A DNA stretch of 64,000 nt from Mycoplasmataceae bacterium (GTDB lineage: Bacteria > Bacillota_I > Bacilli_A > Mycoplasmatales > Mycoplasmoidaceae). Shown piece after piece: positions 7,676-55,780 of this stretch (positions are counted from its first letter, which is position 1; every line of letters begins with the position of its first letter). The notes below the pieces were generated by a model, which saw nothing but the letters and a program-made list of their open reading frames with translations, was not told the origin of the DNA and did not search any database. The position numbers and the translations under genes were made by a program. The DNA is taken from the NCBI GenBank assembly GCA_029009155.1, contig JAQXJX010000019.1, positions 1 through 64,000 of the forward strand. Reading direction: 5' to 3'.

Positions 7676-8350
7676 TTACCTTCCTCCTGTAAACTTATTG
7701 CAAGCTTCTTTAGCTGCCAATTGCTCAGCATCCTTAATTTTTTTTCCTATTCCTGTACCGTACTTAATATTATTACACCATAATTCTGCATGATAATTAT
7801 CATGGGAATTTTTAAATACTTTGTATTTAATACTTTTTTTACCATATTTCATCATTAATTCTTGGAATTTACTCTTAAAATCTACAAGACTATTTAATTT
7901 ACTTTTTTCATATGGTATGCATAATGTTTCAATAACTACTCTTCTTGCTACTTCTAATCCTAAGTCTAAAAAAATTGCACCTATTAAAGATTCATAAACA
8001 TCTTCAAATATCTTTTCATGATTCTTATCATGTGCTAATGAATTACCTAATAAAATATATTCTTTTAAATTTAATTGTTTAGCAGCCATAATTTCTGATT
8101 TTGACTGAACAATCATGATTTTAGTTTTAGTGATATCACCTACTGACATCTTAGGAATTTTGTCAAATAAATATTGAACAACTACTAAGCTTATTATTGT
8201 ATCACCTAATAATTCTAAACGTTCATAGTTATATGATAAATGATTATCATTAGAAAAAGATATATGTGTCATTGCCTCCATATAAAAGGAATAACATTTA
8301 GGTTTAATCTTTAGTTTTTTAAATAACTCAGAAAAAGTATTATTTATCAT
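7676..8350 (-). CDS. rnc: Ribonuclease III
   Basis: This dsRNA endonuclease processes rRNA precursors and other structured RNAs. The 224 residues contain the catalytic signature NYERLELLGD near residues 42-51, a second acidic motif 'DVYESLIGAIFLDLG' (about 117-131), and a C-terminal dsRNA-binding domain ending 'AEQLAAKEACNKF'. The gene overlaps the end of plsX by 11 bases and directly abuts smc. The cluster plsX-rnc-smc-ftsY is the classical Firmicutes order with the fab genes lost. Confidence 0.95.
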   Translation of the reverse strand: MINNTFSELFKKLKIKPKCYSFYMEAMTHISFSNDNHLSYNYERLELLGDTIISLVVVQYLFDKIPKMSVGDITKTKIMIVQSKSEIMAAKQLNLKEYILLGNSLAHDKNHEKIFEDVYESLIGAIFLDLGLEVARRVVIETLCIPYEKSKLNSLVDFKSKFQELMMKYGKKSIKYKVFKNSHDNYHAELWCNNIKYGTGIGKKIKDAEQLAAKEACNKFTGGR

Positions 8351-9323
8351 ATTTATTTATATTTTCTTTTATCTTTTTAACAAGGTTAACATCAATAACT
8401 TTTTTTAGCATTTCTAAAGATGAATAAAATTGTTTCATATCAGCAGAACCATGAGTTTTAACTGCTGGTTTATTTAAACCAATAACAATTGCACCAGCAT
8501 TATTACGATAATCAAAAGTTTTTTTCAATGATAAAATTGAACCAATTGAGAATAAAGCTCCTAATCAATTTCAAGGTTTCTTAAATGATTGTTTTAATGA
8601 TGAAGTTAGTGATTTTAATCCACCTTCTATTGCTTTTAAAACTAAATTACCTGTATAACCATCTGAAACACATATATCAACTACACCTTGTAAAATATAT
8701 CTTGGTTCTACAAATCCTTGATAATTTAATTTATCATTCTTCTTTAATAATTCATTTGCTACATGATGATATTCAAAGCCCTTTTGTGCTTCAGTACCAA
8801 TATTAATTACACCAATTTTAGGTGACTCAATTCCTCGGACAGTTTTACAATAAATGTCTGCCATAATAGCAAATTGATGCAAATCTTCTCCTGTACAAGT
8901 TTTATTAGCTCCAACATCAATTAGCATCACGCCTTTTTTATTTACTGTTGGCATATAAGGCATAAAAGCTGGTTTAGAAATTCCAGGGATAGATTTTAAA
9001 ATAAAGTAACTTAAAGAAATAAAACCTACAGTTGAACCAGCTGATAAAACACCATCTGCTTTATTATCTGCAACAAGTTTAATTGCTTGGAACATACTTG
9101 TGTTAGTTCTTCTTAAAGCAGTTAAGGCAGATTCTTCCATAGTTAGTACTTCAGAAGCGTGGAACACTTCAAATTCACCTTCTTGGATTAATGGATTAAT
9201 TTTATCTTTATCACCTACTAAAATAATTTTTACATCATGGTATTTTTTAACAAATTTCCTAGCAGCTATAATAGCTTCAGAGATATCATTTTCATATCCC
9301 ATTACATCTAATGCAATTTTCAT
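8340..9323 (-). CDS. plsX: Phosphate acyltransferase PlsX
   Basis: PlsX converts acyl-ACP to acyl-phosphate, the donor for glycerol-3-phosphate acylation in phospholipid synthesis. The 327-residue protein starts MKIALDVMGYEN, a variant of the family start 'MKIALDAMGGD', and contains 'GVLSAGSTVGFISLS', 'LIDVGANKTCTGEDL' and 'ISEDG'-like 'ICVSDGYTGNLVLKAIEG'. It is the first gene of the plsX-ftsY run. One TGA (about residue 250) is read as Trp. No fatty acid synthesis gene is seen in the window, so acyl groups probably come from exogenous lipid; fakA at 45770 fits that. Confidence 0.93.
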
Positions 9324-9384: not shown

Positions 9385-10218
9385 TTATGCATCGTATTTT
9401 AAAAAATTACTTAAGAAAAAATCAAAATCTTTAAAATGTTCAATAATTGCAGAGTTTGGTACATCTGCTACTATTTTCCCTTTTTTAATAATTATTGTTC
9501 TATTAGTGTGAAATAAAATTTCTTTAATGTTATGAGATGATAAGATTAAAGTTGATTTGTTGTAATTAATATAATCTCTAACGATTTTATTTACATAGAA
9601 TTGTTTATCAACATCTAAGGCTGTAGATAATTCATCAAGTAAAATTATGTTAGGATTACTCATAAAAGCTAAAGCAATATTTAGAATTTGTTGTTGTCCG
9701 CCTGATAAACGATTTGCTTTTTGAGTTAATATTTTATCTAAGGTAAAATATTCAATAAATTTAACAATTTCATTATCTGTTAGTGGTTTAGAAATAACAT
9801 AATTTTGAATATTAATTAAATCATATACAGTTAACCCTGCTGGACATGAAGCATCTTGAAATTGGATACCTATTTTTTCATATGGTGTTTCTAAATAATC
9901 ATAGTTATAATTTATAGTCCCGTTACTTTGTTTGTTAACACCACAAATTATTTCAAGCAATGTAGTTTTACCTGCACCGTTTGCTCCTAATAAAGCAATC
10001 TTATCTTCTTTATAAATTTTTAAATTGATACCATTTAAAGCATGAACATACTTTCTTGGAAATACATAAAATTTTTTGGTTAAATTTTTGATTTCTAGAA
10101 TTACTTCATTTTTATGAGGTGTTTCTTGAAATAAATCAAAAGTTTTAAGTAAATCTAAAAATTTTCGATCTACTTTTGTTGATGCTGTGATTTTTTTATT
10201 TTCCATTTGCTTCACCAT
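9385..10218 (-). CDS. ABC transporter ATP-binding protein (LRR-ABC cluster, 1)
   Basis: The 277-residue nucleotide-binding subunit has Walker A GANGAGKTT (residues 78-86), signature LSGGQQQ (171-177), Walker B NIILLDELSTALD (190-202) and a switch His in 'LILSSHNIKE'. It carries about 40 extra N-terminal residues before the ABC fold. It resembles the ATPases of ABC-2 exporters and is paralogous to the protein at 12080-12922 (both share 'ETPYEKIGIQFQ'). It overlaps the preceding membrane protein gene by 23 bases; an in-frame ATG at 10206 would shorten the overlap. No permease adjoins it directly, so it may pair with the single ABC-2 permease at 12927-13787. The substrate is unknown. Confidence 0.88.
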   Translation of the reverse strand: MVKQMENKKITASTKVDRKFLDLLKTFDLFQETPHKNEVILEIKNLTKKFYVFPRKYVHALNGINLKIYKEDKIALLGANGAGKTTLLEIICGVNKQSNGTINYNYDYLETPYEKIGIQFQDASCPAGLTVYDLINIQNYVISKPLTDNEIVKFIEYFTLDKILTQKANRLSGGQQQILNIALAFMSNPNIILLDELSTALDVDKQFYVNKIVRDYINYNKSTLILSSHNIKEILFHTNRTIIIKKGKIVADVPNSAIIEHFKDFDFFLSNFLKYDA

Positions 10219-12070
10219 TTTGCTTATTAATTAAATTAATTTTTTTCTTGCGTTTAAGATAAATATATAGTCTTCAAGAAACTAAACCAATAATCCCTAA
10301 AGATAAAGGTATAAAAGTACAACAATAAACTGGTATTAAAAACTTGTTTTCTTTAAAATCAGAAATACTAATTAAATATTCTTTATTTAATGACCCGTAA
10401 GATAATATTGCTGTCAATAATTCATTAAATGTATACTTATCAACTTCAATATCAATGTTAGATGGTAAATATTTGATAATACTTATTCCAAATTTTATAC
10501 TAAGATAAAAGATTCCATCATAATCATTGCTTGATGTTGCACTAATACTTGGTAAAACTGACATTAAATCTATTAAAGAAACTTTTTTATTAATACCAAC
10601 TGACATCATATGTAAATTATTAATTGTTGTACACATTTTGTCATTTATTTCATTAGCTGTTTCTAATTGACTAGGAAGTTTATTTTCTATTAATGAAGCA
10701 ATTTCATTATTTGATTTGAAATAATTAGCGATTTCATTTGGAGTGACAGTAATTGCATCTGTTTGATATTGACCAAATGGAGCAATAAGCATTAATAATA
10801 GTGTTAATATTGAGTTATCAAATTCTGAACCCCAAACAGTATATGTTAAATATGAATATTTTATATGACTAGCTAATTCAATTGATTGAATTATAGGAGG
10901 GATATCAGTTCCTAAAAGACCTTTTATAAGCATAGAAATTAAGGCTTCATTTCCAATTGTTACTGCCTTTCATGTATCTAAGGCTTTAGCTGATCATGTT
11001 GCCTCATTAGGAATAAATTTAGATGTTTGATTAAAAAACAAGTAAGGCATGTGATTATAATCTAGCATTAACCCATTAGTTAATTGTGCTTTAGTTTTTT
11101 CATCAACTTTAATTTTATTGATTAATGTAGGCAATCCAGGATAATATCCTGATGATTGAACTAAATATCTTTTAATGTATGCTGATAATTCTACATATGT
11201 TAATTCATTATGTCTTAAATCAATGTTATCAAAATAAGCATCAATAACTTCATCTCTTGCAGTAACACCTTGATATTTATGATTCATATATTTTCTACCA
11301 TTTTTCTCAAATAGCCATTCTGAATCAGAATTATCTGAAACAATTGATGCAAAATTAGGGACAATTCTTAAATTGTTATATGACAAATCAATATTTTTGA
11401 TTTTCATATCAGGGTGTTGTTCACCATAATCTAAAATAAGTGCTCAAAGAGTAGGATTTAACAACGCTAATACGCTGTTGTCTCTATCTAAGTCATTGCT
11501 AAACATTCTAGAAAAATTTAATGTTTTATTATCAATAATTGATGGTTCAACTTTTAAAAAAACTTTTAAAGCATCTAAAGTACATTTTTTATTGTAATCG
11601 CCTAAACTAAAATAATTTGCAACAGCTTTATTTCCTGCAAATACATCAAGAAAAGTATTAGCTTTAGGATCATAGTCATGTTCAGCAATATAAGCAAAAC
11701 CACTTTCAGATTTTCAGTTTGTATTAATACTTACATTTTTATATTCACTTGATGATTGTTCATATAAATGGAAACAATTTACTATTGTATTTGGTGAATA
11801 ATAAACATAATTAAAACGATCTAATGATGAATCATTTGTATGTATTCTATTTGGTTCAACATTTTCTTTTTTGATATCAGGATAAAACAAAGATGAAAAT
11901 CTTTGATCCATTGAATGATAACTAGGTTCATTTGAATAGTTACTTACTAAATGATTATCATTATTTAAAACACTATTATGATAATTGCCACAACAAATAG
12001 GAAGGACAGTTCCAACTATTGAAGATGATATTAAGAATGATTTCAATAAATTTATTTTATGTTTTCTCAT
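10196..12070 (-). CDS. LRR-like ectodomain membrane protein, paralogue of 13795-15432
   Basis: I do not recognise a named family. The 624 residues start with a signal or anchor segment (residues 8-27, ending VLPICCGN, not a canonical lipobox). A large extracellular-type region follows. It contains leucine-rich-repeat-like text 'IKNIDLSYNNLRIVPNF' and 'NIDLRHNELTYVELSAYI'. A single C-terminal membrane helix (IPVYCCTFIPLSLGIIGLVS) precedes a short basic tail. The middle aligns with the protein at 13795-15432 ('NPTLWALI...IKNIDLSYNNL' against 'NNPFFYQL...IKSINLSNNKL'). It lies between two ABC ATPase genes with 9-base spacing and a 23-base overlap, so it is probably a partner of the transporter. 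Several TGA codons are Trp. Confidence 0.75.
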
Positions 12071-12079
12071 AATATTTAC

Positions 12080-12922
12080 CTACTTAATATATTTAATTAA
12101 AAATTGCTCAACAGATCCAAATTCTTTTTTAACTTTATTTATATCTGCATCACAAAATATTTCACCATTTTTTAATAATACCAATCTATTACAAAGACCT
12201 TCAATTTCAATAATATTATGACTAACACACATAAATGGGATTTTAGATTTTTTTAAGAATTTATCTAAATAACTAATAACTGTTCTTTGTGAATTTACAT
12301 CTAGTCCTGTTGTTAATTCATCAAGTAACAATAATTTTGGTTTATTAATTAAAGCCAATAAAATATTCAAACGTTGTTTTTGGCCACCAGATAAACTATT
12401 AGCTTCTTTGTTTAATAGTGGTCTTAAACCAAACATATCAATAGCTTGTTCAACATCATCTTTTTTAATTTGAATCTTTTTATTTATATGTGATAAAAAA
12501 ATAATTAAATCTTTAACAGTTAATCCATGTGGATAATGTGATATTTGAAATTGAATACCAATTTTTTCATATGGTGTTTCATTATAATCATATCCATAAC
12601 TAATATATCCAGATGTTTTTGATTGCACACCAGAAATTATTTCTAAAAATGTAGTTTTACCAGCACCATTAACACCTAACAAAGCTATTTTGTCATTTTG
12701 ACGAATAGTTAAATTTATATTACTTAAAACAGTTTTAACTTTATTTTTAATTTTAAACTCTTTTGACAAATTTTCTATTTTAACTAAAATAGGGCTTTTT
12801 AAATCTTCTTCAAAAGCAATTTTTTGATTTAAAACTTTAGTTTGTTCATTAATATCAGCATTTGCTGCTTGAACAACTTTATTTTTATTAATAATTTCAA
12901 TAATTTTCTTTGCTTTAATCAT
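12080..12922 (-). CDS. ABC transporter ATP-binding protein (LRR-ABC cluster, 2)
   Basis: The 280-residue ABC ATPase has Walker A GVNGAGKTT (83-91), signature LSGGQKQR (about 187), Walker B 'KLLLLDELTTGLD' and switch region 'PFMCVSHNIIEI'. It is paralogous to the ATPase at 9385-10218. It follows the ABC-2 permease gene by four bases (12927-12922), the usual layout of a drug- or peptide-type ABC-2 exporter pair. The N-terminal ~45 residues form an extra charged helix not needed for the ABC fold. The substrate cannot be read from sequence. Confidence 0.9.
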   Translation of the reverse strand: MIKAKKIIEIINKNKVVQAANADINEQTKVLNQKIAFEEDLKSPILVKIENLSKEFKIKNKVKTVLSNINLTIRQNDKIALLGVNGAGKTTFLEIISGVQSKTSGYISYGYDYNETPYEKIGIQFQISHYPHGLTVKDLIIFLSHINKKIQIKKDDVEQAIDMFGLRPLLNKEANSLSGGQKQRLNILLALINKPKLLLLDELTTGLDVNSQRTVISYLDKFLKKSKIPFMCVSHNIIEIEGLCNRLVLLKNGEIFCDADINKVKKEFGSVEQFLIKYIK

Positions 12923-12926
12923 ATTT

Positions 12927-13787
12927 TTAAATTTTAAATGTTTTTACTGACACTAATGTAAATACTATTGTTGATAGATAAGGAATTGACAAGTTTAGAA
13001 TTTTATCATGTTCCCTTAAAATTGTAAATTTAATTGGAACTAAATCTGTTGCAAATGCTTCATAAGGAGTTGAAACATCAAACATATTAGAACCAAAAAC
13101 ATTAAATTTTGAAGGAACTGAATATAGAGCTTCATATGCTTGTGTTGTACCATATCTAATGAAATCAAAATATGAAGCATATCATACTACTGGCAATTGT
13201 TCTGATGCAATCATTATTGGTACCATTAAACCACCTAACAATAATGATAAGAATATAACACTTACTCCAATCATATTAATTGTTGATGAACGTTTTAATA
13301 CTGATGCTATCATTGTTCCAAATGATCCACCCATACAAATATTTAAGAATAAAACAAAGAGTAATATTCATCAATTAGTTTGGCTATACATTTTTAATGT
13401 TTGTTCAATAACAAATTTTTCTGGTGTAATTATGGATGATATGATTGATAAGAAAAAAGCAATTACAGCCATACATGAATAGTAGATTCATCCTACCAAT
13501 AACACATGTCATAATTTAATTGAAGATGTTTTTAATTGCTTAATTAAAATAGAATCCTTAATTTCAAAAATTGCTTGTGGCAACAATATCAATAAAATAA
13601 TGTATGAACAAGTAAAAATTACAGTTGGAATTGTTGCAGAACTTAATGATATAGGATTGTAGTTGTAAGTAAAAGTATATATTGAAACAATTAATCAAAT
13701 AAAAGTAATTGGTAATAAAAAAGTGATTAATGGACCAAATATTGATTTTCAAAAGTTTTTATTATAAATTCTTAGTAAGTGAATCAT
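12927..13787 (-). CDS. ABC-2 type permease
   Basis: This 286-residue integral membrane protein is only open if at least six TGA codons are read as Trp. It begins MIHLLRIYNKNFWKSIFGPL, typical of ABC-2 permeases that start with a short amphipathic helix. About six hydrophobic segments follow, including 'LITFLLPITFIWLIVSIY', 'TVIFTCSYIILLILLPQ', 'SCMAVIAFFLSIISSII', 'ILLFVLFLNICMGGSFGTMI', 'IGVSVIFLSLLLGGLMVP' and a C-terminal helix. The phrase 'GGLMVPIMIASEQLPVVWYASYFDFIRYG' region matches the conserved last periplasmic loop of ABC-2 exporters. It is the only permease in the five-gene cluster and probably serves both ATPases. Confidence 0.85.
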
Positions 13788-13794
13788 AGTGTTA

Positions 13795-15432
13795 TTATTT
13801 TGTATTATTAATATTTTCCAAATCTTTATTTTTACGTTTTTTAATTTTATATTTTTTAAATCATGAATAATAGAATACTATTCAGCCAATTACTAACAAT
13901 AAGCATACAATTGAAATAATAACTACATTCAGAGTAACATTTCTACCATTTGTAAATCTGTATGACAAAAAAGCAAATTGATGAAATTCATCATTATTTA
14001 TTGTGACATTAAAATCAGTTTTATCTTCATTGTAATAACATGTTTGAGATGATATAAGACGAATAGAAATATCTACTTTACCTTTTGATCTGTTTGTATT
14101 ACAATATGCATACATGTATTTTCCATATTCAATTTGACTAACAAGCATTTCAGATAATCAACTACCTGTATAAATATAATCAGATGATAAGTGATTTTTA
14201 TTAATATAAGTTAAAATCATTTGTTCTATTTCTGTATTAGATAATGATGATATATCTATCTTATTTTTTTTAGAATAATCAGATAAATAATTAGCTACAT
14301 ATTCTTCATTAGTCATTAAACATGAAGTTTGAAATATGCGATCAGATTCACCAATTTTCTTTTTTGAAAGTATAAGAGTTTTAGTATTTTCATAAGACAC
14401 ATCAAAAGAAATAGCATGTAATGGGTGATCACCAATAGTTCATGTTGGATCAACACCAATATAATTATCATCTAATGAAATCTTAAAGTCTGAACTAGCT
14501 TGATATGTTAAATCATGTTTAGTGATATCACTATCAGATTTATAAATATTAACCATAGGTAGAGCTGTTATATGGTTACTAATTAAATTTAAATTTTTAA
14601 TTTTATTACATTTTATAAATTTAACTACTTTAGATTCAGATTTTAATGAAACTGAAATTGAAGATGATGTTAAAAATAAAGAGTCAAATCTTTTAGGATC
14701 TTGATTATTAATTTTTAATACTTCATCATAAGGTAAATCTAAAAAATTAAATAATGGAATGTTCCATAATTTATTATTTGACAAGTTAATACTTTTTATT
14801 TGTGAAAGAACAGATGAATTACTAGATACCAATTGATAAAAAAATGGATTATTTAAACATTTAACTGTATCATCCGCATATGGATCATCTAAATAAAAAT
14901 TTAAATCTCTCTTTAAAAATTCATCATAGTGGGGAGATAAATCTCAATCTGGAGTATTTGTAGTAAATGTAAATAATGAATTTATATTAAATAAATCCTT
15001 TGCAGGATCACCTTCAGGGTCAAAATAAGTTGCAACATCTCAATTTAAAAATAATTGCAAATATGTCATTTTATTACAAGAAGAAAGAGTAGGTCAACCA
15101 TTTGATAAAAATTCCACATCTGGACTAATTGAAATATATGAAGGAAATTTAGCTTCATATATTTCTTTAAAATTTGGAGCTTGACTATTTCTTTTTTCTT
15201 TATCATCCACATTAATAATAATGTTTGAAAATTTTGGATAATTAAATTCATTATTTTTTGAATAGTAAAGTCTTGGTTCCAAATTAGTTATTGGTTCATC
15301 AGAACTACTTTTTAAAGTTGTATTAATTGATTGTTTTAAGTTAGTCGTACTATTTTTTGAACATAGAGACAAAAAAGGTAAAGCAATCAATGCTAATACA
15401 ATGGATGAGATTTTTTTACTAATGGTTTTCAT
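13795..15432 (-). CDS. LRR-like ectodomain membrane protein, first gene of cluster
   Basis: Unrecognised family; 545 residues. A signal-type N-terminus (ISSIVLALIALPFLSLCS) is followed by an exported region with leucine-rich text 'IKSINLSNNKLWNIPLF' and 'IKNLNLISNHITALPMV'. A single C-terminal membrane helix (NVVIISIVCLLLVIGW) and a basic tail 'KKYKIKKRKNKD' complete it. Topology and part of the sequence match the protein at 10196-12070, so the two arose by duplication. The stop codon is seven bases before the permease start, indicating one operon of five genes. A function as substrate-capture or sensing ectodomain for the exporter is an inference. Confidence 0.75.
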
Positions 15433-15449: not shown

Positions 15450-16331
15450 TTAATAATTATTTTTTATAAACTCTTTTATTCTATCTTTAATTTCATCATC
15501 TTTAGAAGCTTGATATAAAATAGCATCAATAAAACCAACCTTTGATCCTATATCAAAACGTCTTCCATTAAAGCAACATGCATAAACACCATTTTTGCTA
15601 TTTTTAGCTAAATCCATTAATGCGTCAGTGATTTGTATTTCACCAGATTTATCAGGTTTAACACGATCAATAGCATCAAAAATATCTGGAGTTAATACAT
15701 ATCTTCCTAGTATTGCTTGATTGCTTGGAGCAATACTTGCATCAGGTTTTTCTAACATTCCTTTTAATTTAAATACACCATTTTTAACTTCATTTGGATC
15801 TGTTGGATCTACAATACCATATTTATGAATGTCTTCTTTTTTAACAGGCTGAGTACCAACTATTGAACTTAATGTTTTATTATAAGCCTCAATACATTGT
15901 AATAGTGCTGGTTTTTGGTTTTCTTCAGCAAATACTAAATCATCTCCTAAAATTACAGCAAATGGTTCATTACCAATAAAAGTTTTAGCACATCTAATGG
16001 CATGACCAAGTCCTTTTGGTTCTTTTTGACGAATGAAATGAATATTTGCCATATTAGAAATATGATTAATCATGTCATATTCTTTCTTTTTATTTTTTTC
16101 TAATAAACGATGTTCTAATTCATATGAATGATCAAAGTAATCAATTATTGAATTCTTTTGTGAAGATACAATAATAAGTATTTCTTCTATACCACTTTTA
16201 ATAGCCTCTTCTACTATAAAATGAATTGTTGGTACATTAATAATAGGAATCATTTCCTTAGCTAATGATTTTGTTGCAGGCAAAAATCTTGTCCCTAAAC
16301 CTGCTGCAGGTATAACTAATTTTTTAATCAT
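15450..16331 (-). CDS. galU: UTP-glucose-1-phosphate uridylyltransferase
   Basis: This enzyme makes UDP-glucose from UTP and glucose-1-phosphate, supplying glycolipid or capsule synthesis. The 293 residues start 'MIKKLVIPAAGLGTRFLPAT', containing the nucleotide-binding GxGTRxxP motif, and include 'AKEMIPIINVPTIHFIVEEA', 'FAVILGDDLVF' and 'RFDIGSKVGFIDA'. Length and motifs match GalU (about 290 residues). It has its own promoter region, divergent from the small plus-strand gene at 16421. It lies 17 bases upstream of the LRR-ABC cluster on the same strand, so read-through into that cluster is possible. Confidence 0.94.
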   Translation of the reverse strand: MIKKLVIPAAGLGTRFLPATKSLAKEMIPIINVPTIHFIVEEAIKSGIEEILIIVSSQKNSIIDYFDHSYELEHRLLEKNKKKEYDMINHISNMANIHFIRQKEPKGLGHAIRCAKTFIGNEPFAVILGDDLVFAEENQKPALLQCIEAYNKTLSSIVGTQPVKKEDIHKYGIVDPTDPNEVKNGVFKLKGMLEKPDASIAPSNQAILGRYVLTPDIFDAIDRVKPDKSGEIQITDALMDLAKNSKNGVYACCFNGRRFDIGSKVGFIDAILYQASKDDEIKDRIKEFIKNNY

Positions 16332-16635: not shown

Positions 16636-17982
16636 CTATTTTTTAATTTCAAAATTATCATTAGTAAAAATACTGATGATAATTTTTTTTATACTCTTCT
16701 TATCAATTTGAATATTTGAAAATAAGGTTGGGTAATCATAAAGTGTATACTTTAAAATCTTTTTAACAGAAGATCTTGAAAAAGAAACATCTGGTGGTAA
16801 AATAATTTTTGGTTGAATATTTAATCTTTTGTAAAAAGAAATTATTTCATTTAAAAATAAAATAACAGTTTGTTCATCGTTTTCACAATTATAACCAATT
16901 CCTTTTGCACATTTAACTAATGTTGTAAAAATGGTAGGATTATTAAATTGAAATTTCAATATCGACATTAATACTATTGGTTTAATGTTGTTAATTGGTA
17001 AATTGTATACTTTTCTAATTGCAACACATAAAGCATTAATAATTCCGAATTGAGTATGATTAATTGCCATCCCTGACATCATTGAAGCTTGATTTAATTG
17101 TTCATAATCAAATTCATTATTGTAGATTCATGAATTCAAATTATTTAAACAAATGGTCATTGAATCTAAAGCAAAAGCTTGAGTTATCAAATCATCAGTA
17201 CGAGATAAAAAGCATTCAAATGAATTATTAAAAATTGATAAGATGTCTCTTACAAGATCTTTTTTATCTTGCATTTGAATAAATTTGGTATCTTTTATAA
17301 TGTGATTTATTTGAATGTTTTTGTCTAATAAAGTAGCTTGCCTTTTTTGAATATATACAGTTGTTGTTTTGACAAATTCACTACCATCACATAATGATGT
17401 TGGAATTGCTACTTGTATTGGTAAAGGTTTATTAATATGGTTTCATATTTCAAATGTTAATAATGGTTTATTTGTACCTATTTGTGAGCGTACTGCTTTA
17501 CCAATATTATGTGTTTGATAATTACCAACAGTTACAACCATATTTAAATTAGCTGCAAAATATTCAATTTCAATTCTGTTAATTAAATGTCATGTAATGT
17601 AATCTTCATATTCTTTGGATACAACATATTGAAAACGATTGTTTGTAAAAATTTCACCTAGAAATTTTATATCAGATTCATTACTAGAAACTAAAGCCCT
17701 AGGAATATCACTATTGATTCTTAAATGAGATATTAAATTATTGAAATATTTAACACTGTTTTCCCCTATTACAATATCACGTGTATATCCTGTAATGTAA
17801 GATAATTGATACACCTCTCTTAAGAAAGGTATAAATCATTGTAAGAACTTTATATTTTTACTAACAGATATTAATTCTCTTGATGTTTGAAAACGCATCA
17901 AAAAATGCAATATATGTTTTAAAACAATTGCATTGTTTCTTAAGAATCAAGATAAAACAGTATTAAATATGAATGTTGGCAT
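16636..17982 (-). CDS. Degenerate iron-alcohol-dehydrogenase-like protein (448 aa)
   Basis: This is a distant member of the Fe-ADH / dehydroquinate-synthase-like fold. The Rossmann-type N-terminus has 'NMVVTVGNYQTHNIGKAV', matching the family's 'IIAVGGGSVIDAAKAI'. 'VAIPTSLCDGSEFV' matches 'VAIPTTAGTGSEVT', and 'ASMMSGMAINHTQFGIINAL' matches the helix that normally carries the metal-binding His pair. The ligands appear lost: the Asp/His of 'DAFSH' correspond to Ser/Asn in 'SIFNNSFECF', and the HxxxH equivalents are Asn. It is therefore probably a non-catalytic relative. The ATG at 17982 lies 20 bases inside the preceding gene. Many TGA codons are Trp. Confidence 0.7.
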
Positions 17983-18868
17983 AAAAATCCTTTACTGTTT
18001 TTTCAAGTTTATCTCAATCATATACATCACATTTATTAAAACGTCATTTTGATGATTCTTGTTTTCTTTTTTTCATTTCAGCTATTAATTTATCAAACTC
18101 AGTTTTAAAATTTTTAGCTAACTCTTTTTCAAAAATTTCATAGTTTAAACATTTTTTAATGTTCTTTTCAATAAGTTCATTATCATCACAATTGTTAACT
18201 ATTGTAAAAATTATTTGGTCTAATTGTGATAATACTAATCTAATTTTACGCCTTTGAGAAAAATTCATTTTTTTATATTTATCTAATTTATAAAAATTAA
18301 TTAAAGAATTCAATGTTCTAATTGCTTTAAAAGATAAAGCATTTAATACTTCATTTTCATTTAATAAATATGTTGAAATTGCAATTGATAAATTAGCAAA
18401 TAAATGAACATAAGTATCAACAGACATTTTTAATTTTCTTCGATAATTATCATAAGCAATTTCTGGAATAAATTTATTATTCTTAATTAAGCATTGATTA
18501 ACAGGATCATAAACTATTGATGATAAACCATATAATGTTCCAGATGTTTCTTCAATTGTAACTAAATGTGGTGTATATCTTGTAACTTTAATTTCATCAA
18601 TAAATCTTTTGTCACCCATACAAACAATTGCATCATATTTTTTATTATTAAATTGATCAATTTGTTTTTGCTTAGAAAAATTAATCATTTTAGCTCTTTT
18701 TAATCTAAAACTTAAACTAAATCATAAGCAAAACATTTTTCATGGAAAAAATTTTTTCTTATAAACTATTGCTATTTTTTTATGTTTATTCCCAGTAAGA
18801 AACTTAACTATAGGAATGATAGAACTTAGCCCAATTATTACTTCACTCGGAAAATTAAATTTGATCAT
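17963..18868 (-). CDS. Degenerate iron-alcohol-dehydrogenase-like protein (301 aa)
   Basis: The frame stays open upstream to an ATG at 18868 when TGA is Trp, giving a family-like N-terminus 'MIKFNFPSEVIIGLSSI'; a start at 18688 would remove part of the fold. 'YDAIVCMGDKRFIDEIKV' replaces the NAD-binding 'GGGS.IDAAK' motif, and 'VTIEETSGTLYGLSSIVYD' aligns with 'IPTTAGTGSEVTPFAIITD'. 'SVDTYVH' keeps the Asp and first His of the metal site (AdhE has 'GADAFSH'). The C-terminal half lacks the second His pair and is replaced by a lysine-rich helical tail. It overlaps the next gene by 20 bases, so the two products may form a complex. Function unknown. Confidence 0.7.
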
Positions 18869-24439: not shown

Positions 24440-25819
24440 TTATTCAGCAGTTTTTTTAGAATCAAAAGTCATACTTCAATTTAGATCATTTACTGTTTTA
24501 GGGTGTTCATTCTTAACAACACTCTTAACTGTTCCATCGCCTACATTAATTACTAATGATGCTAATTCAGCTAAAACTGGGTTGTGAGTTACAATTACTA
24601 TTGTTGTTTTATATTTTTGATTAATTGTTAAAAATAAATCCATTATTTGTTTAGAAGTTTCTTGGTCAATGGCACCTGTTGGTTCATCACCAAATAAAAT
24701 ATTAGGGTTTTTAACAACACTACGGGCAATTGAAACTCTTTGTTGTTGACCACCTGATAATTCATTTGGATACTTCTTAATTTGTTGGTACAATCCAATG
24801 GATCTTAATACCTGTTCAACATCTATTGATTTTGATTCATCTGTTTGTAAGTTTTTACCAATTTCAACATTTTCTTTTACATTCAAATTTGGTAATAAAC
24901 CATATTGTTGAAATACATATCCAATATTTTTTCTTCTGAATGAAGTTAATTGATTTTGATTATAATTGATTAAATTTTCACCTGCAACAATAGTTTCACC
25001 ATATGTAGCATTATCCATGCCAGAAATAATATTTAGTAAAGTAGTTTTACCACTACCACTTGGTCCTAAAATAACAACAAATTCACCTTTTTTAATAGTT
25101 AAATTAACATTATCTAAAACTTTTGTTGCTAAAGATTTAGTGTGGTAATATTTAACTACATTTTTTAATTCAATAACATTATTATTTGCAGTTTGATTAT
25201 TATTTGAATTAGAACTAGAAACTTTTTTCATTGCATCTAGTTTATTTACTAATTTAGCATGATATGAAGTATAAAACAATGAAAAAAGACTATTCAAAAA
25301 GTTATTAGATTCTTCAATTTTTTTGCTTATCTTATCAATTTGCTTTTTAATTTTAGATTGATTGGATGAATCAGATAGTGGTAATTTAACATTTTGTAAA
25401 TAAACTCTTTTATTAGAAAAATGTAATATTTTTCAATAAAGATAATTAACTTTTCAAACATATGAAAATTTAAATGGATAAATTTCTTTTTCATTTAATT
25501 GTTCAATCTTTTTAATGTATTGGTACAATTCATCACTATTTAATTTAGAACGTGATTCACTTTCAGGGATTGATTGTAATTGTTCAATTAAAAATTTGTT
25601 TTTACATAATTTTCCCTTTAGACAATTAGTTTTTTTATTTAATTTGTGAAGCACTTTTTTGCTTTTTACATATTCTTTATATGTTTCTTTATTTTTAACA
25701 CTAATGTCATTAAATTGTTCTTGAGTAGAATTGATTAATTCTGTTAGTGTTTTAATTGCATTTTCATGCATTTGATTTTTAGTATTTAATTTTTGAATAA
25801 CTTCAGTTTTATTTTTCAT
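24440..25819 (-). CDS. MacB/LolD-type ABC ATPase with N-terminal coiled-coil domain
   Basis: The 459-residue protein has an N-terminal domain of about 170 residues, strongly helical and rich in Lys, Gln and Asn, that looks like a coiled coil. The ABC domain follows with Walker A GPSGSGKTT (about 252-260), 'NIGYVFQQYGLLPNL' Q-loop, signature LSGGQQQR (about 354), Walker B 'NILFGDEPTGAID' and switch His in 'VIVTHNPVLAEL'. The motifs are those of the MacB/LolD/FtsE class, which drive FtsX-type permeases. The start lies 12 bases after the huge permease gene (25832-30748), its evident partner. The N-terminal domain is unusual for the class. Substrate unknown. Confidence 0.88.
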
Positions 25820-25831
25820 ACTTCACCTCTA

Positions 25832-28800
25832 TTATTTAATTGCATTTGTTAATTTATTCTTCTTAATTGAATAAATAGCACCTGTTGCTGATACTCCAAA
25901 TATAGTAAGAATAAATACAACACCAATAATGTAATATCATCACTGAATTGATGAATTTAATCATATTCCTATTCCATTAAAGACAATAGAATTATATGCT
26001 ACAACAAATCCTCATGATAGTAATAGCGATAATAATAAACCAATGAAAATAACTGGTACATAAATTGATAAGAATGAATATGCATTTTCAATATCTGTAT
26101 AACCTATTGCTTTTAGTAATGAAGCTAATCGTTTAGAATCATTAATTATCATGTTAGTAATTAATGCTGTGATAATCATTACCATGAATAACATTACTAC
26201 TAATACAGCAAATGTAATACTTGAAATAGTTTGTGACATAGTTTCATAAACTGTTTTATTGGAATCAAAATCAATTACACTTGTTGTTAATCCAGTATAA
26301 GCTGTTTCACCATAGTAGTAACGAATTTTTTCAATTAATTCATTACTATATTTAATAAATTCATCATGCATAGCTTCTTTTTCTGATACAGGAGCATTAA
26401 TGAAATCAAGATATGCTTGATTAATTTTTTTACCCAATTCTGTTTCTGCGTCATATGCCATTTGACATGCAATTTGTGTATTTGAACCATATCTAAACAC
26501 AGTGTGACTTGTAGTTGAAGTTATCTTATCATTTGCAGGATATAGTCCTGATGATGAATAAAGATATGTTGACTTAGATAATTCAGGACCACCATCTTCA
26601 CTCTCAGTGAATACACCATTAAAACCATATGGGGTAATGTTGTAATTTCTTAATGAAGAATTTTGTGGACTTTGATAATTTTTTAAATTAATCAAACTTG
26701 CTTTTGTATTAAGTCCCTCTGATTGGAAGTCGATCTTCATCATTGTATCAGTACCAATGGTGTCATACATAAAAGGGTAATAGTTGTTTGGCTGATTTCT
26801 CATTTGTAAGAAAGGATCAGCATCTAGTAAGTGACTCTTTAAACCTAAAACATAATTTGCTACATCTTGATCAACGAAATATTCTTGTCCTTCATATGTA
26901 TTACAAATTCCTACAACTTCAAAAGTAACTTGATCATTATAGTTTGGATCAGTTAAATTGTTATCTAATCTTATTTGGTGGTGAATTCGATTTGCTAAAT
27001 TGTTAATTGTAAAACTAATCTTATCACCTTTATGAAGATTATATTTGTGTTGAGCATAAGCATTAGCTACAATAGGTAATGATTTATTAGTTTTTAAATC
27101 ATCATAAGAATATGCTATTAATGGTAATAAATTATTACCTTTGTTGTCAACAAGATCAACATATTTAGTTTCATATCCTTTAGTGGCTTTAATACCTAAA
27201 ATTTTTACATTTTCTTTATCTTTATTTACAGAAGCATCAATTCATGTATATGTTTCATCATTCTTTCCAATTGGAACACTATTATAAAGAATTGAAAAAT
27301 CATTTTCTGCAACTTTTTCATATGTATAAATAATCTTTAAAAGCTTAACAAATTGTGGTTTTAAAGAAACAGACATTTTTTCATACATTGCTTTATTTCT
27401 ATCAATATGGTATGAAGATTCATTATTATCTAAAGCTGGAATGAAAGTTTTATACAAATCATAATATGGATCAGTAGATAATATTTTGTACAATTCTTCA
27501 TATTTTGGATTACTTTTACCTTCTACATAATATAAAGCATTACCAACAAAATCAATTGTATTTTGTGTTTTAGTTTCACATAAATTCTTTTGATTATCTG
27601 GCATTAATGAAACTGCTATATCTCATGGGTTAGCTCTAATAGCACTACCTACACCAACATTGTAATCTAGTGATGATTTAGTCATTGCACGATCTTTTAA
27701 GTAAAAGATATCTAATGATTGACCTAAAGTATCTCCAGCATATGGCATAAATAGGTTACTTAACATATTATTAGTATTTTCACCAACACGTTCATTTAAT
27801 CAAAATAAATTAATTGCATCTTGAATAGATGTTTCTTTATTTTGTTGGGCAGCTAAAGCTCAAGATGAATAGTAATATGGTTTATTAATATATTGATTTA
27901 AAGCACTATTTTCTCATCCGTATGCAGAGATTTTTGGTAATAAATTACCATAATCTAAACCTGGTACACTAAAATTTAAAGAATATTGTGTCATTGCTTT
28001 ACCACTTCATGATAATGGCAAACCATAGTAAATTGATTGAGTATAGTCATTATCTCGTGGATCATTACCAGCTTGATTAAAACCGCTCATTCCTATACCG
28101 TTAAAATTTCCAAGTTTATCACTTGAATATGCCACTGGTGTATATTGACCACCTTCTATTGTTGGTGTATATAAGGAAACTGCATATTTGTATTTTCTAC
28201 TTTCATTAGTTGCATTTATTGATGTTTCCAGCTTACCATGAATAGACATCGCAAATACTAATGAAGAAAGAGTTAAGGAAGTAGTAATAATTAAAATAAT
28301 TAATTTTCAAAATGAACTAAAAGCAACTGAAATTCTAAATTTAGTTATTACATTTGTTTTAAAGAAAATTGCTTTAAAAAATTTTGATAGGAATGAAGGG
28401 TTATCTTGGCTATTTGTCTTCATTAAATCAACAGTGTTCTTTTTTAAAATCAATAATGAAGTAATATAAATTACTGACATCAATAAAACAAAGGCAGCAA
28501 TAACACAAATGACTAGCGATAATCAACTAAATCCTACTGTAGGTGTTGGCAATGTCCAATAATTTTTAAATAGTGATAATGTTGGAACTTCCAATACAAC
28601 ACCAATTAAAATACCAGCAATACCGCCAATTAATGAAGTTATTATTGCAAATGGCATTAAAGAAGTTGCAATAGCAAATTTTGAATAACCATTTGCTCTC
28701 ATAATCCCTAAAGTTGTTTGATTGTTTACAATATAACGGTGGATTGTAATTGAACTAATGATAAAAGTTAATATTGCAATAAAGATAGTTAATGAAAGTG

Positions 28801-30748
28801 CAACAGAATTTATTGCATCAATAAATTTAGGTATATAAGAAATTCTAAAAGCAGATGTATTTAAAAGATTTGAGGTATCAGAAGCAAAGTATGCTGCTTT
28901 CATTCCTTTTGGGAATACCATATTATTAATTGCAAATTGGTTAATTTCATCAATAATTTGTTGTTGTTTTTGTTTATTAGATGTTTTAAATTTACCAACT
29001 ACAAAGTTTTCAGTTTGACTACCACGGTATGCATCATAAATTCTTGCATAAGCACCACTACTTGCAAAAAATACACATTCCTTGTTTGAGTCTGGAGTAA
29101 ATTTATCTAAAGAAACAATTGGATAAATGTAATCTGGAGTTAAACCTGAACCAGTAATAATGTATGAAGTTGAACCACCTGGTTTTATGATTGATTTATC
29201 AAATTTTCCACTATTTGTTGTTCTAACAAATCAATCTTCAATTTCTGGAAATGTTAATGTATTTAATCAACCAATAAATTTTGATTTTTCATCAAATATT
29301 CGTGGATTATTCTTTACATATTCTTGATAAGATTCTTCATTAACATACATTGCATCATCAATTGTATGTTTGTTGTTAGCTTGCATAAATTGAGAACCAA
29401 CAACAGTAAAATATGATGTTCAATTTTGTAATTCTCAAGAAGCAGGATCTCCTGCTCCACCAATTCATTGAATTACAGCTTTTGAATCTTTCAAATAAAT
29501 TTCTTCATTATAATTTTTTTCTGCAGTTAAAAAATTAACAAGTTTTTGTTTATTCTCTGTTCATCATTTTTGGCATTCTTCTTTTGATTTGTTGGGAACA
29601 GGCAATAATTTTCCATCTTTTTCAGTTAAGGCTTTTAATGCAGTATCAATTGGTGCTGGTAATGGAGTACTACCATGTGATCCTTTAGGTATCAAAAAAA
29701 TTTTTTCTACATAATGAATATCAGCTTCATCAGTAATATCCTTAGGAAGTGTTTTAATTGTATCGTTGATAGAATAATTATCATCTATAGCATGATTTAA
29801 GATTCCATATGTGCAATCTTGAATACTAAAATTTCCTCATTGTTTATCTTCGCTATTTACAGATAAAGTACACATTTTATCTATAGTGTCTTCTGGGTTA
29901 GATAAAACCGCTTTATAATACTTTAGCTCACCTGTTTTATCATCTGCAGTATTACCAATATTTACAGATGAAAAATAACGGAAATCTACATAATCTTTTT
30001 GTTGTCTTGATAAGTAATCATTTAATAAAGTACTTTGTTCACTTACAACTTGAATTAATTCTTTTGTTTTTTGTTCAATTTGTTTAGAGATAAGTCCATA
30101 ACTGATTTTATTGATTGTTCTGTTAATTTCTTCACCTGATAATGATGTTATTTCAGATGAATTTTTACCATAAGGTTTTTGAACATTAGTGCAATAATTA
30201 TAAACCTCATTCATGTCAGCAATAACTGCTGAAGTATCAGCTATTACATCAACAGAAAATAATGGTTCAAAATATTGTTGATATTTTGCTCACAATTCTG
30301 GGTCAGATTTACAAGTTAAATAAAATTTCTTAATTGATGTAACATTATCTAATTTATCAACATCTAATAAATAATGATATTCAAAATGGTATTTATTATT
30401 ATTTCTTGTAGGTAGTAATGTTGCTTTAATATAAGGGTATATTTGAGCAACAGCATCATTTGATTTAACTAAGAAATCATTATCAAATAAATAAGTCGCA
30501 GATTGATCAGATCATTTTTCTTTATTATTAACATAATTAGGAATACCAACATCATATAATTCTGATACAGTAAAATCATGTAATTTACCTTCAGATGCAA
30601 TGTCATTATATTTGTTGTTAATCGAAGTTACAGATGAATTTAATGTAGTAAAAACAGTTGTAGCTAAAAATGTTAAAAAAGTTAATCCAATTACTGATAA
30701 CTTATTGCTTTTGATAGATCTTAAAGTATTCTTAAAAAGGTCTAACAT
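25832..30748 (-). CDS. Giant FtsX/MacB-type ABC permease
   Basis: A single frame of 1638 residues is open with TGA as Trp. The N-terminal helix 'LSVIGLTFLTFLATTVFTTL' is followed by an extracellular-type domain of about 550 residues. A first FtsX core lies around residues 615-780 (helices 'LSLTIFIAILTFIISSITIH', 'MPFAIITSLIGGIAGILIGV' and another). A helix near residue 820 leads to a second large outer domain, and a C-terminal FtsX core follows ('ITFAVLVVMLFMVMIITALI', 'LSIYVPVIFIGLLLSLLLSW', 'YIIGVVFILTIFGVSATG'). It belongs to the family of large mycoplasma putative ABC permeases with paired FtsX units. It is cotranscribed with its ATPase (24440-25819). Confidence 0.85.
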
Positions 30749-53152: not shown

Positions 53153-55780
53153 ATGAGTAATGTTGAAAAAATTGTGCAAGATGTAAGAAAAGCACAAGAA
53201 GAATTTGCTCACTTTACACAAGAACAAGTAGATAAAATTTTCTACGAAGCTGCTAAAGCTGCTAATACACAAAGAATTCCATTAGCACAAATGGCAGTAA
53301 AAGAAACAGGCATGGGTGTTGTTGAAGATAAGATCATTAAAAATAACTATGCTGCTGAATATATTTACAACAAATATAAAGATATGAAGACTTGTGGTGT
53401 TTTCGAAGAAGATGCTGCAGCTGGTTATCAAAAATTATATGCACCAAAAGGTGTTTTAGCTGCAATTATCCCTACAACTAACCCAACTTCTACAGCTATT
53501 TACAAATGTTTATTAGCTTTAAAAACTAGAAATGGTATTGTTATTTCTGCTCACCCAAGAGCTTATGAATGTACAACTAAAGCTGCTGAAATCGTTTTAA
53601 AAGCTGCTGAAGCTGCAGGAGCTCCAAAAGGAATTATTGCATGATTACCTCCAAAATCAAGTATGGAAGATACTGATATTTTAATGAAAACATGTAACTT
53701 AATCCTTGCAACTGGTGGTGGTGGATTAGTTAAAGCTGCTTATTCTTCAGGAAAACCAGCAGTAGGTGTTGGTCCTGGTAACTGTCCAGCAATTATTGAT
53801 GAAACTGCAGATATTAGAATGGCTGTTGCTTCAATTATCCAATCTAACACATTTGATAATGGTGTTATTTGTGCAACTGAAAACTCTGTAGTAGTTGTTT
53901 CATCAATTTATGACAAAGTTGTTGAAGAATTCAAAAATCAACAAGCATATGTAGTAACTAGTGAATCTGATGTTAAGAAAATCGGTGCTGGTATGTTCCG
54001 TGAAGGAAAAATTGGTATGTTAAACCCAGCAATGGTTGGTCAAAATGCTCAAGGTTTAGCTAAATTATTTGGTATTAAAGTACCTTCATGAGCAAAAATG
54101 TTAGTAGTTCCTACTCAATCAACTGATCCATCAAATCCATTAGCACATGAAAAATTAGCTGACTTTGTTTCACTATACAAAGCTAAAAACTTTGAAGATG
54201 CAATTAAAATTCAAAGTGAATTACTAAAACTAGGTGAAGGTCATACAGCTTCAATCTTCTGTGATGAATTAGTTGGTGCTGACCACATTAAAACATTCAG
54301 AGATACTGCAAAAGCTGGTAGATTAATTGTTAACTCTCCATCTTCTTTAGGTGGTGTTGGTGACTTCTATAACTTTAAACTTGAACCATCATTCACATTA
54401 GGTTGTGGTTCATATGGTGGAAATAGTTTTAGTGAAAACATTGGCCCAAAACATTTATTAGACGTAAGACAGGTAGCTATGAGAAGAGAAAACATGTTAT
54501 GATTAAGAATTCCAAGCCGTGTTTACTTTAAATTCGGTTGTGTTGAAGAAGGTTTAAAAGACTTAAAAGATGATGGTGTTAAAAAAGTATTCATCGTTTC
54601 AGATAACTTCATTTGAGGAATGTTTGGTAAAAAAATTACAAGTATTTTAGAAAACTATGGTATGACAACTAAGGTATTTACTGAAGTTGAACCAAACCCT
54701 TCAAAAGCAACTACATTTAAAGGTGCTGAATTAATTAAATCATTCAACCCAGAAGCTATTATTGCTTTCGGTGGTGGTTCATCATTAGATGCTGCTAAGA
54801 TGATGTGATTCTACAATGAATATCCAGATGTAAAATTCGAAGATTTAGCAATTCGTTTCATCGATATTCGTAAACGTGTAGTTAAATTCCCTACACCTAA
54901 AAAAGTACAATTAGTTTGTATTCCTACTACAGCAGGTACAGGTTCAGAAGTTACACCATTTGCAATTATTACTGATGAAAAAACTCATGTTAAATATTCA
55001 TTAGCTGATTATGCATTAATTCCAAATGTAGCAATTATCGATGCACAATTCATGATGTCATTACCTCCAAGAATGACTGCAGTTACAGGAGCAGATGCTT
55101 TCAGTCACTGTTTTGAATCTTATGTATCAATTTTAGCTACAGACTTCTCAAAACCATATTCATTACAAGGTATTAAGTTAATTTACAAATACTTAAAACG
55201 TGCAGTTGATAATGGAACTACTGATAAAGAAGCAAGAGAAGCTATTGCACATGCAGCTACAATTGCTGGTATCGCATTTGGTAATGCATATTTAGGTGTT
55301 GTTCACTCATTATCACACAAAATTGGTGGTCACTTCGGTGTAATGCATGGTGCTGCAAATGCTATCTACTTACCATATGTAATGCGTTACAATGCTGCTA
55401 AGTTTGAATGTGAAAAACAAATGTACTGACCTCAAAACCAATACAATGCAGTTAGAGAAAGATACTGTGAAATTGCAGATGCTATTGGTATTAAAGGTAA
55501 AACAGATGCTGAAAAAGTTGATAATTTAATTAAAGAAGTTCAAAAATTATTTGCTTCTGTTGGATTATGAAAATCAACTAAAGAATACGGTGTTAAGGAT
55601 GATGAATTCTACAAAATTCTTGACCAAATGGCAGTTGAAGCATTTGATGACCAATGTACAGGTGCTAACCCAAGATTACCTCGTATTGAAGAATTAAAAC
55701 AATTATTCATTGATGCTCACGAAGGTAATGAAATTAAAAGTCTTGCAAAGCAAGATGCTGAAGGAAGCAAAAATAAATAA
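53153..55780 (+). CDS. adhE: Bifunctional acetaldehyde-CoA/alcohol dehydrogenase
   Basis: AdhE reduces acetyl-CoA to ethanol via acetaldehyde, regenerating NAD+ in fermentation. The 875 residues comprise an N-terminal aldehyde dehydrogenase ('IIPTTNPTSTAIYKCLLALK', active-site Cys in 'NTFDNGVICATENSVVV') and a C-terminal iron alcohol dehydrogenase ('IIAFGGGSSLDAAKMM', 'IPTTAGTGSEVTPFAII', metal ligands in 'GADAFSHCFES' and 'VVHSLSHKIGGHFGVMHG'). Length and both active sites appear intact. The start has AAAAGGAG. Codon use is richer in GCT/CCA-type codons, as for a highly expressed gene. About nine TGA codons are Trp. Confidence 0.97.

Follow-up and report, generated by a model that had tools for sequence, protein, structure and literature searches.

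A five-gene cluster in the window (the whole stretch of 64,000 nucleotides of Mycoplasmataceae DNA that we analysed) appears, from gene order and sequence relationships, to belong to a duplicated three-gene unit, ectodomain–permease–ATPase, one gene of which has been relocated. We read the system in this way because a complete cluster of six genes is found in a related genome (G005), and the orthologue of its second permease lies at an unlinked site in the genome of the window (G000). That the cluster has two ATPases but a single permease follows from this relocation and is not a property of the machine itself.

Genes and products of the cluster

The open reading frames of the window were read under genetic code 4. 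All five frames of the cluster (Table 1) are open under this code and lie on the minus strand; in the order ecto1 to ATPase2, the junctions measure 7, 4 and 9 bases, followed by one overlap of 23 bases. The run of five genes and its reading as one operon, both proposed by a first-pass annotation made from the sequence alone, were thus confirmed. The overlap extends from the first ATG of ATPase2 to the stop of ecto2, a junction that in G005 is occupied by the second permease gene.

Table 1. Genes of the cluster and its immediate neighbours in the window
Gene	Positions	Strand	Product and features
ecto1	13795..15432	-	545 aa; signal segment, D..D..V..L.NP block 182-196, LRR-like motifs 215/281/318, C-terminal TM helix ~503-525, K/R-rich cytoplasmic tail
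perm1	12927..13787	-	286 aa ABC-2 permease; N-terminal N..xWKSxxGP elbow motif; Pfam ABC2_membrane (PF01061) 5.5e-6
ATPase1	12080..12922	-	280 aa; Walker A GVNGAGKT, signature LSGGQKQ, Walker B LLLLDE, H-loop
ecto2	10196..12070	-	624 aa; layout as ecto1: block 193-206, LRR-like motifs 227/283/334, C-terminal TM helix, basic tail
ATPase2	9385..10218	-	277 aa; full set of catalytic motifs
galU	15450..16331	-	UDP-glucose pyrophosphorylase; Pfam NTP_transferase 3.1e-30; upstream, 17 bases from ecto1; context, not component
plsX	8340..9323	-	Pfam FA_synthesis 7.7e-77; downstream neighbour; context, not component

Domain matches agreed with the earlier assignment of two ABC ATPases and an ABC-2 permease. 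ABC_tran (Pfam) was matched at 2.3e-27 by ATPase1 and at 5.5e-26 by ATPase2, and the Walker A, Q-loop, LSGGQ signature, Walker B glutamate and H-loop are all present in both ATPases of the window and in both of G005. The PF01061 score of perm1 (26.5 bits) is marginally below the 26.9-bit cut-off, and that of the second permease (perm2, 27.9 bits) is above it; six hydrophobic segments were seen in perm2 and in the G005 orthologue of perm1. With both the ATPase motifs and a six-TM permease homologous to PF01061, the products are predicted to form an ABC-2 (type V) transporter. The PDB sequences nearest to ATPase1 are those of ABCA3, ABCA4 and ABCA1. Searches of the PDB returned only LRIG1 for ecto1 (E 0.011) and no sequence relative for ecto2 or for the permease profile.

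Each ectodomain protein consists of an N-terminal signal segment, an outer region and a single TM helix near the C-terminus, followed by a tail rich in Lys and Arg. The two do not match each other significantly in direct BLAST; when profiles were compared, each built with the respective G005 orthologue, hhalign returned a probability of 95 (E 2.5e-8), and it is this comparison, not direct BLAST, that establishes their paralogy. The orthologues (L030:9250-10794 for ecto1 and L030:5698-7533 for ecto2) are 23% and 26% identical to the window proteins, respectively, or 28% and 30% on MAFFT alignments.

The four known ectodomain proteins have in common a D..D..V..L.NP block, followed by three LxLxxNxL motifs, and this order is kept throughout. 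Shuffling gave P values from 0.0035 to <0.0005 for the LxLxxNxL motif, a pattern that was chosen after seeing the four proteins. The motifs are spaced 36–69 residues apart, versus the ~24 expected of LRR; therefore any LRR core must be short and interrupted. The Pfam model LRR_8 was matched by ecto1 of the window at E 0.11 (12.7 bits, below the gathering score) and, at best, at 4e-4 by ecto1 of G005 (20.5 bits versus a gathering score of 27), while ecto2 had no Pfam match at all, LRR domains included. Neither protein belongs to a curated family of Pfam or NCBIfam. The description of the ectodomains as LRR-like is thus supported by conserved, ordered motifs in all four proteins, but not by any curated LRR hit above the gathering score, and for each protein taken singly the LRR reading is weak.

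With regard to anchoring, the lipobox is strict in ecto1 of G005 (ISGC) and relaxed in ecto2 of G005 (GSSC). Both window proteins have a correctly placed cysteine within a non-canonical lipobox, so that their lipidation is uncertain. AlphaFold2 models of the two ectodomains, built from two-sequence alignments, had a mean pLDDT of 29.9 and 32.5, values too low to speak for or against an LRR fold.

Some other loci of the window may be mentioned here. An ABC ATPase (24440-25819, 459 aa) stands beside a 1638-aa protein that matches PF02687 (8.9e-18) in two stretches; judging from these matches to an FtsX-like permease domain, the pair (24440-30748) appears to be type VII-like, with a very large additional portion. 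A 448-aa protein (16636-17982) bears a weak similarity to iron-dependent alcohol dehydrogenases (C-terminal domain, 5e-9) and its gene is adjoined by that of a 301-aa protein devoid of Pfam matches (17963-18868), while a normal adhE-type protein is encoded at 53153-55780.

The second permease and the history of the cluster

When 40 related genomes were searched with the permease of the cluster, the best relative was found in G005 (contig C10), where the gene order is ecto1–perm1–ATPase1–ecto2–perm2–ATPase2. The orthologue of perm2 in the window genome is located on another contig (G000:C18:4307-5179), and it is more similar to G005 perm2 (36% identity) than to perm1 of its own genome (28%). 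All six G000 genes pair with their positional counterparts in G005, at identities of 33% (perm1), 36% (perm2), 43% (ATPase1) and 46% (ATPase2) for the transporter subunits. Trees placed the two perm1 sequences together with support 99/96, the perm2 pair with 100/98 and the ATPase2 pair with 100/97; the ATPase1 pair was not resolved. The earlier remark that only one ABC-2 permease is present hence applies to the cluster but not to the system.

In G000, perm2 sits in a hisS-aspS operon, between a gene for a four-TM protein and hisS. The three genomes whose hisS is most similar (G014, G016 and G019) have a four-TM gene directly followed by hisS, and no permease intervenes. The regular order of the units in G005 points to a move from the cluster to the hisS site. 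As a caution, the relocated permease illustrates how subunit counts taken from one operon can mislead.

The cluster stands between galU and plsX in the window genome, and these two genes abut in G016, G019, G040 and G041. In G014 they are 173 bases apart, and the gap holds a remnant of the C-terminal part of ATPase2 with a broken reading frame (L121:2475-2649), which reads ILLKDGEIVMDVPTKAIVDHFK and then, in another frame, FDFFLTNFIK; its alignment score is 75, whereas none of 1000 shuffles scored above 54. Because this remnant was kept at the G014 galU–plsX site, at least part of the cluster was already there in a common ancestor of G000 and G014, and it was deleted in G014. For G016 and G019, a complete and traceless deletion is the natural reading. 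The GC content of the cluster (22.5–25.3%) is only slightly lower than that of its flanks (25.2–28.5%) and does not suggest a recent import. Given the G014 remnant and this small difference, we rejected as the main story a recent horizontal insertion into a clean galU–plsX junction. Nor do we favour a functional connection with galU, through UDP-glucose and the export of polysaccharide, as the G005 cluster has no adjoining galU.

Both ectodomain families were found in just 2 of the 320 genomes of the order, each time inside the cluster with the ABC genes; their routine occurrence without such genes, which had been named beforehand as the outcome that would speak against a dedicated coupling, was not seen. 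With the system present in no more than two genomes, co-occurrence statistics are weak. Among 395 sampled genomes of the class, ectodomain homologues turned up in the own genome only (G005, not among the matches, was presumably outside the draw); GTDB r220 contigs yielded none besides the G005 contig, and viral contigs none. Two borderline matches, in G272 (E 3.6e-4) and G557 (E 9.4e-4), were dismissed as chance: they cover C-terminal parts only, and the G557 frame contains TAA/TAG stops.

These data bear on the idea that ecto1 and ecto2 are simply common surface antigens or adhesins whose genes happen to share an operon with a transporter. A signal segment and fast divergence (23–30% identity between orthologues) are indeed typical of surface proteins. 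Nevertheless, both genomes have an ectodomain gene at the head of each unit, and the 320 genomes hold no further member of either family, so we consider this explanation very improbable.

The permease, for its part, has relatives in 54 of the 320 genomes (E<=1e-20), and the loci that were read usually hold a two-gene permease–ATPase pair without ectodomain genes. The cluster accordingly elaborates a common transporter in a rare and lineage-specific way. G000 itself has a separate ABC-2 pair of this type (G000:C8:4074-5796, i.e., L009:4074-5796), whose closest counterparts are in G022, G015, G002 and G011. In other genera of the order, permease and ATPase are fused in single proteins of 569–579 aa (L137, L145, L150, L151).

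Sister clusters in the genus (L032, L033, L034, L035, L037 and L089) have the arrangement permA–ATPase–permB, followed by lipoprotein-like and signal-bearing small proteins. Their permA is ~417 aa long, with a long loop before the last helix, and the clusters are often found beside tuf or fusA/rpsG. The permeases of these clusters branch apart from perm1 and perm2; by analogy, the arrangement supports, without proving, the occurrence of heterodimeric permeases in the clade.

Possible assembly and function

We tentatively favour, at somewhat less than an even chance, a heteromeric exporter of the DrrAB/ABCA-like kind (type V, ABC-2), whose outer mouth would be capped by two dedicated ectodomains and whose cargo would be amphipathic. 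Duplication of the ectodomain–permease–ATPase unit would have yielded two copies of each component, and the transfer of the second permease into the hisS-aspS operon would have left five genes in the cluster of the window genome. The two permeases and two ATPases may then form a heteromeric pump, over whose outer mouth the two type I ectodomains could receive or guide the exported substrate, possibly a lipid, a glycolipid or a peptide. The LRR-like core might provide a recognition surface, and the C-terminal helix might dock beside the permease. The gene content, the orthology, the unlinked perm2 and the ancestral presence at galU–plsX are established by the comparisons above, while physical assembly, direction of transport and cargo are what we infer here.

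The more specific proposal of a six-subunit machine, in which paired paralogous outer receptors gate a heterodimeric exporter and which is retained as a unit despite the permease relocation, seems to us possible though not likely. To our knowledge, no receptor-capped exporter architecture is known in Mollicutes. If the ectodomains do cap the pump, the system would show in an accessible way how extracellular subunits are added to a plain ABC-2 exporter of two genes.

The gene order in G005, consisting of two consecutive complete units, fits almost equally well with two independent homodimeric ABC-2 pumps (ecto1–perm1–ATPase1 and ecto2–perm2–ATPase2) that diverged after the duplication and handle different substrates. 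Such pumps would agree with the full catalytic motifs of both ATPases, and the order has many two-gene permease–ATPase relatives that are presumably homodimeric. However, in the genomes seen, the two units have been retained or lost jointly, and the sister clade pairs two different permeases with one ATPase. On balance we find separate pumps rather unlikely.

Alternatively, the ABC engine could drive conformational changes of the ectodomains without any substrate crossing the membrane, in the manner of type VII ABC systems and of one reading of NosDFY-like assemblies. The ectodomains appear to be permanently anchored in the membrane, each by a helix with the potential to couple to the permease, and were never found without the ABC engine. 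The permease, on the other hand, is ABC-2/DrrB-like and not of the FtsX/MacB mechanotransmission type (perm1 gave no match to the FtsX-like permease domain PF02687), which makes a purely mechanical machine improbable.

Reduced-genome bacteria normally shed genes. Despite this background, a transporter unit was here duplicated, endowed with two surface proteins, kept in divergent species and deleted by close relatives.

Comparison with known systems

No curated NCBIfam model reaches its cut-off with the ATPases of the cluster. DrrA is among the best-scoring models for both (TIGR01188, 120 and 114 bits versus a cut-off of 312), so they are DrrA-like rather than DrrA. The lantibiotic-protection model TIGR03740, indicative of LanF, scores 105 bits versus a cut-off of 310. 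Matches in PADLOC reflect generic ATPase similarity only, and the cluster was rejected as a defence system on this ground.

In LanFEG–LanI, as in our system, an ATPase and two ABC-2 permeases are found together with a membrane-anchored outer protein; LanI, however, is a small lipoprotein, and no lantibiotic locus was recognized near the cluster. This analogy raises the possibility of self-protection, i.e., an immunity or detoxification pump directed against the membrane-active peptides of neighbours, with the ectodomains acting as traps. The high scores of the ATPases against DrrA and their match to the lantibiotic-protection model would be in line with such a role, although all are below cut-off, as would a patchy presence and loss that resembles that of conditional defence genes. 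Still, the adjacent genes are the housekeeping galU and plsX, no bacteriocin gene was recognized nearby, and the PADLOC matches lend no specific weight; self-protection therefore strikes us as quite improbable.

NosD is a beta-helix solenoid, a fold for which neither ecto1 nor ecto2 gave a Pfam match, and the cluster is flanked by galU and plsX rather than by nosZ or nosL. The NosFY ATPase and permease are encoded with NosD as a dedicated extracytoplasmic partner (PMC7558416), and the likeness to our cluster lies in an ABC ATPase and permease having their own extracytoplasmic protein. NosD, however, is soluble, periplasmic and concerned with copper-site assembly, whereas the partner in the cluster is membrane-anchored, LRR-like and duplicated.

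The two-gene ABC-2 pairs of the order, such as that at G000:C8:4074-5796, share the permease family with its N..xWKSxxGP-type motif, but their loci, as far as read, lack ectodomain genes and in some the two proteins are fused.

Accessory surface proteins on ABC-2 systems thus have precedents in NosD–NosFY and LanI–LanFEG. The first-pass annotation was fair in regarding the coupling of ectodomains to an ABC-2 exporter as a non-standard arrangement, and the coupling itself holds, but in view of these generally known cases the statement should not be taken categorically.

The closest parallels to the transporter proper are DrrABC and other type V ABC-2 exporters, with which the system shares DrrA-like ATPases (in the case of ATPase1, with ABCA proteins as the nearest PDB sequences), permeases of ~290 aa and the use of two distinct permeases. 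A precedent for the latter is the DrrB/DrrC heterodimer, which has type V topology (PMC11539658). Unlike DrrABC, the cluster has two ATPases instead of one, plus two single-pass ectodomain subunits that have no equivalent there.
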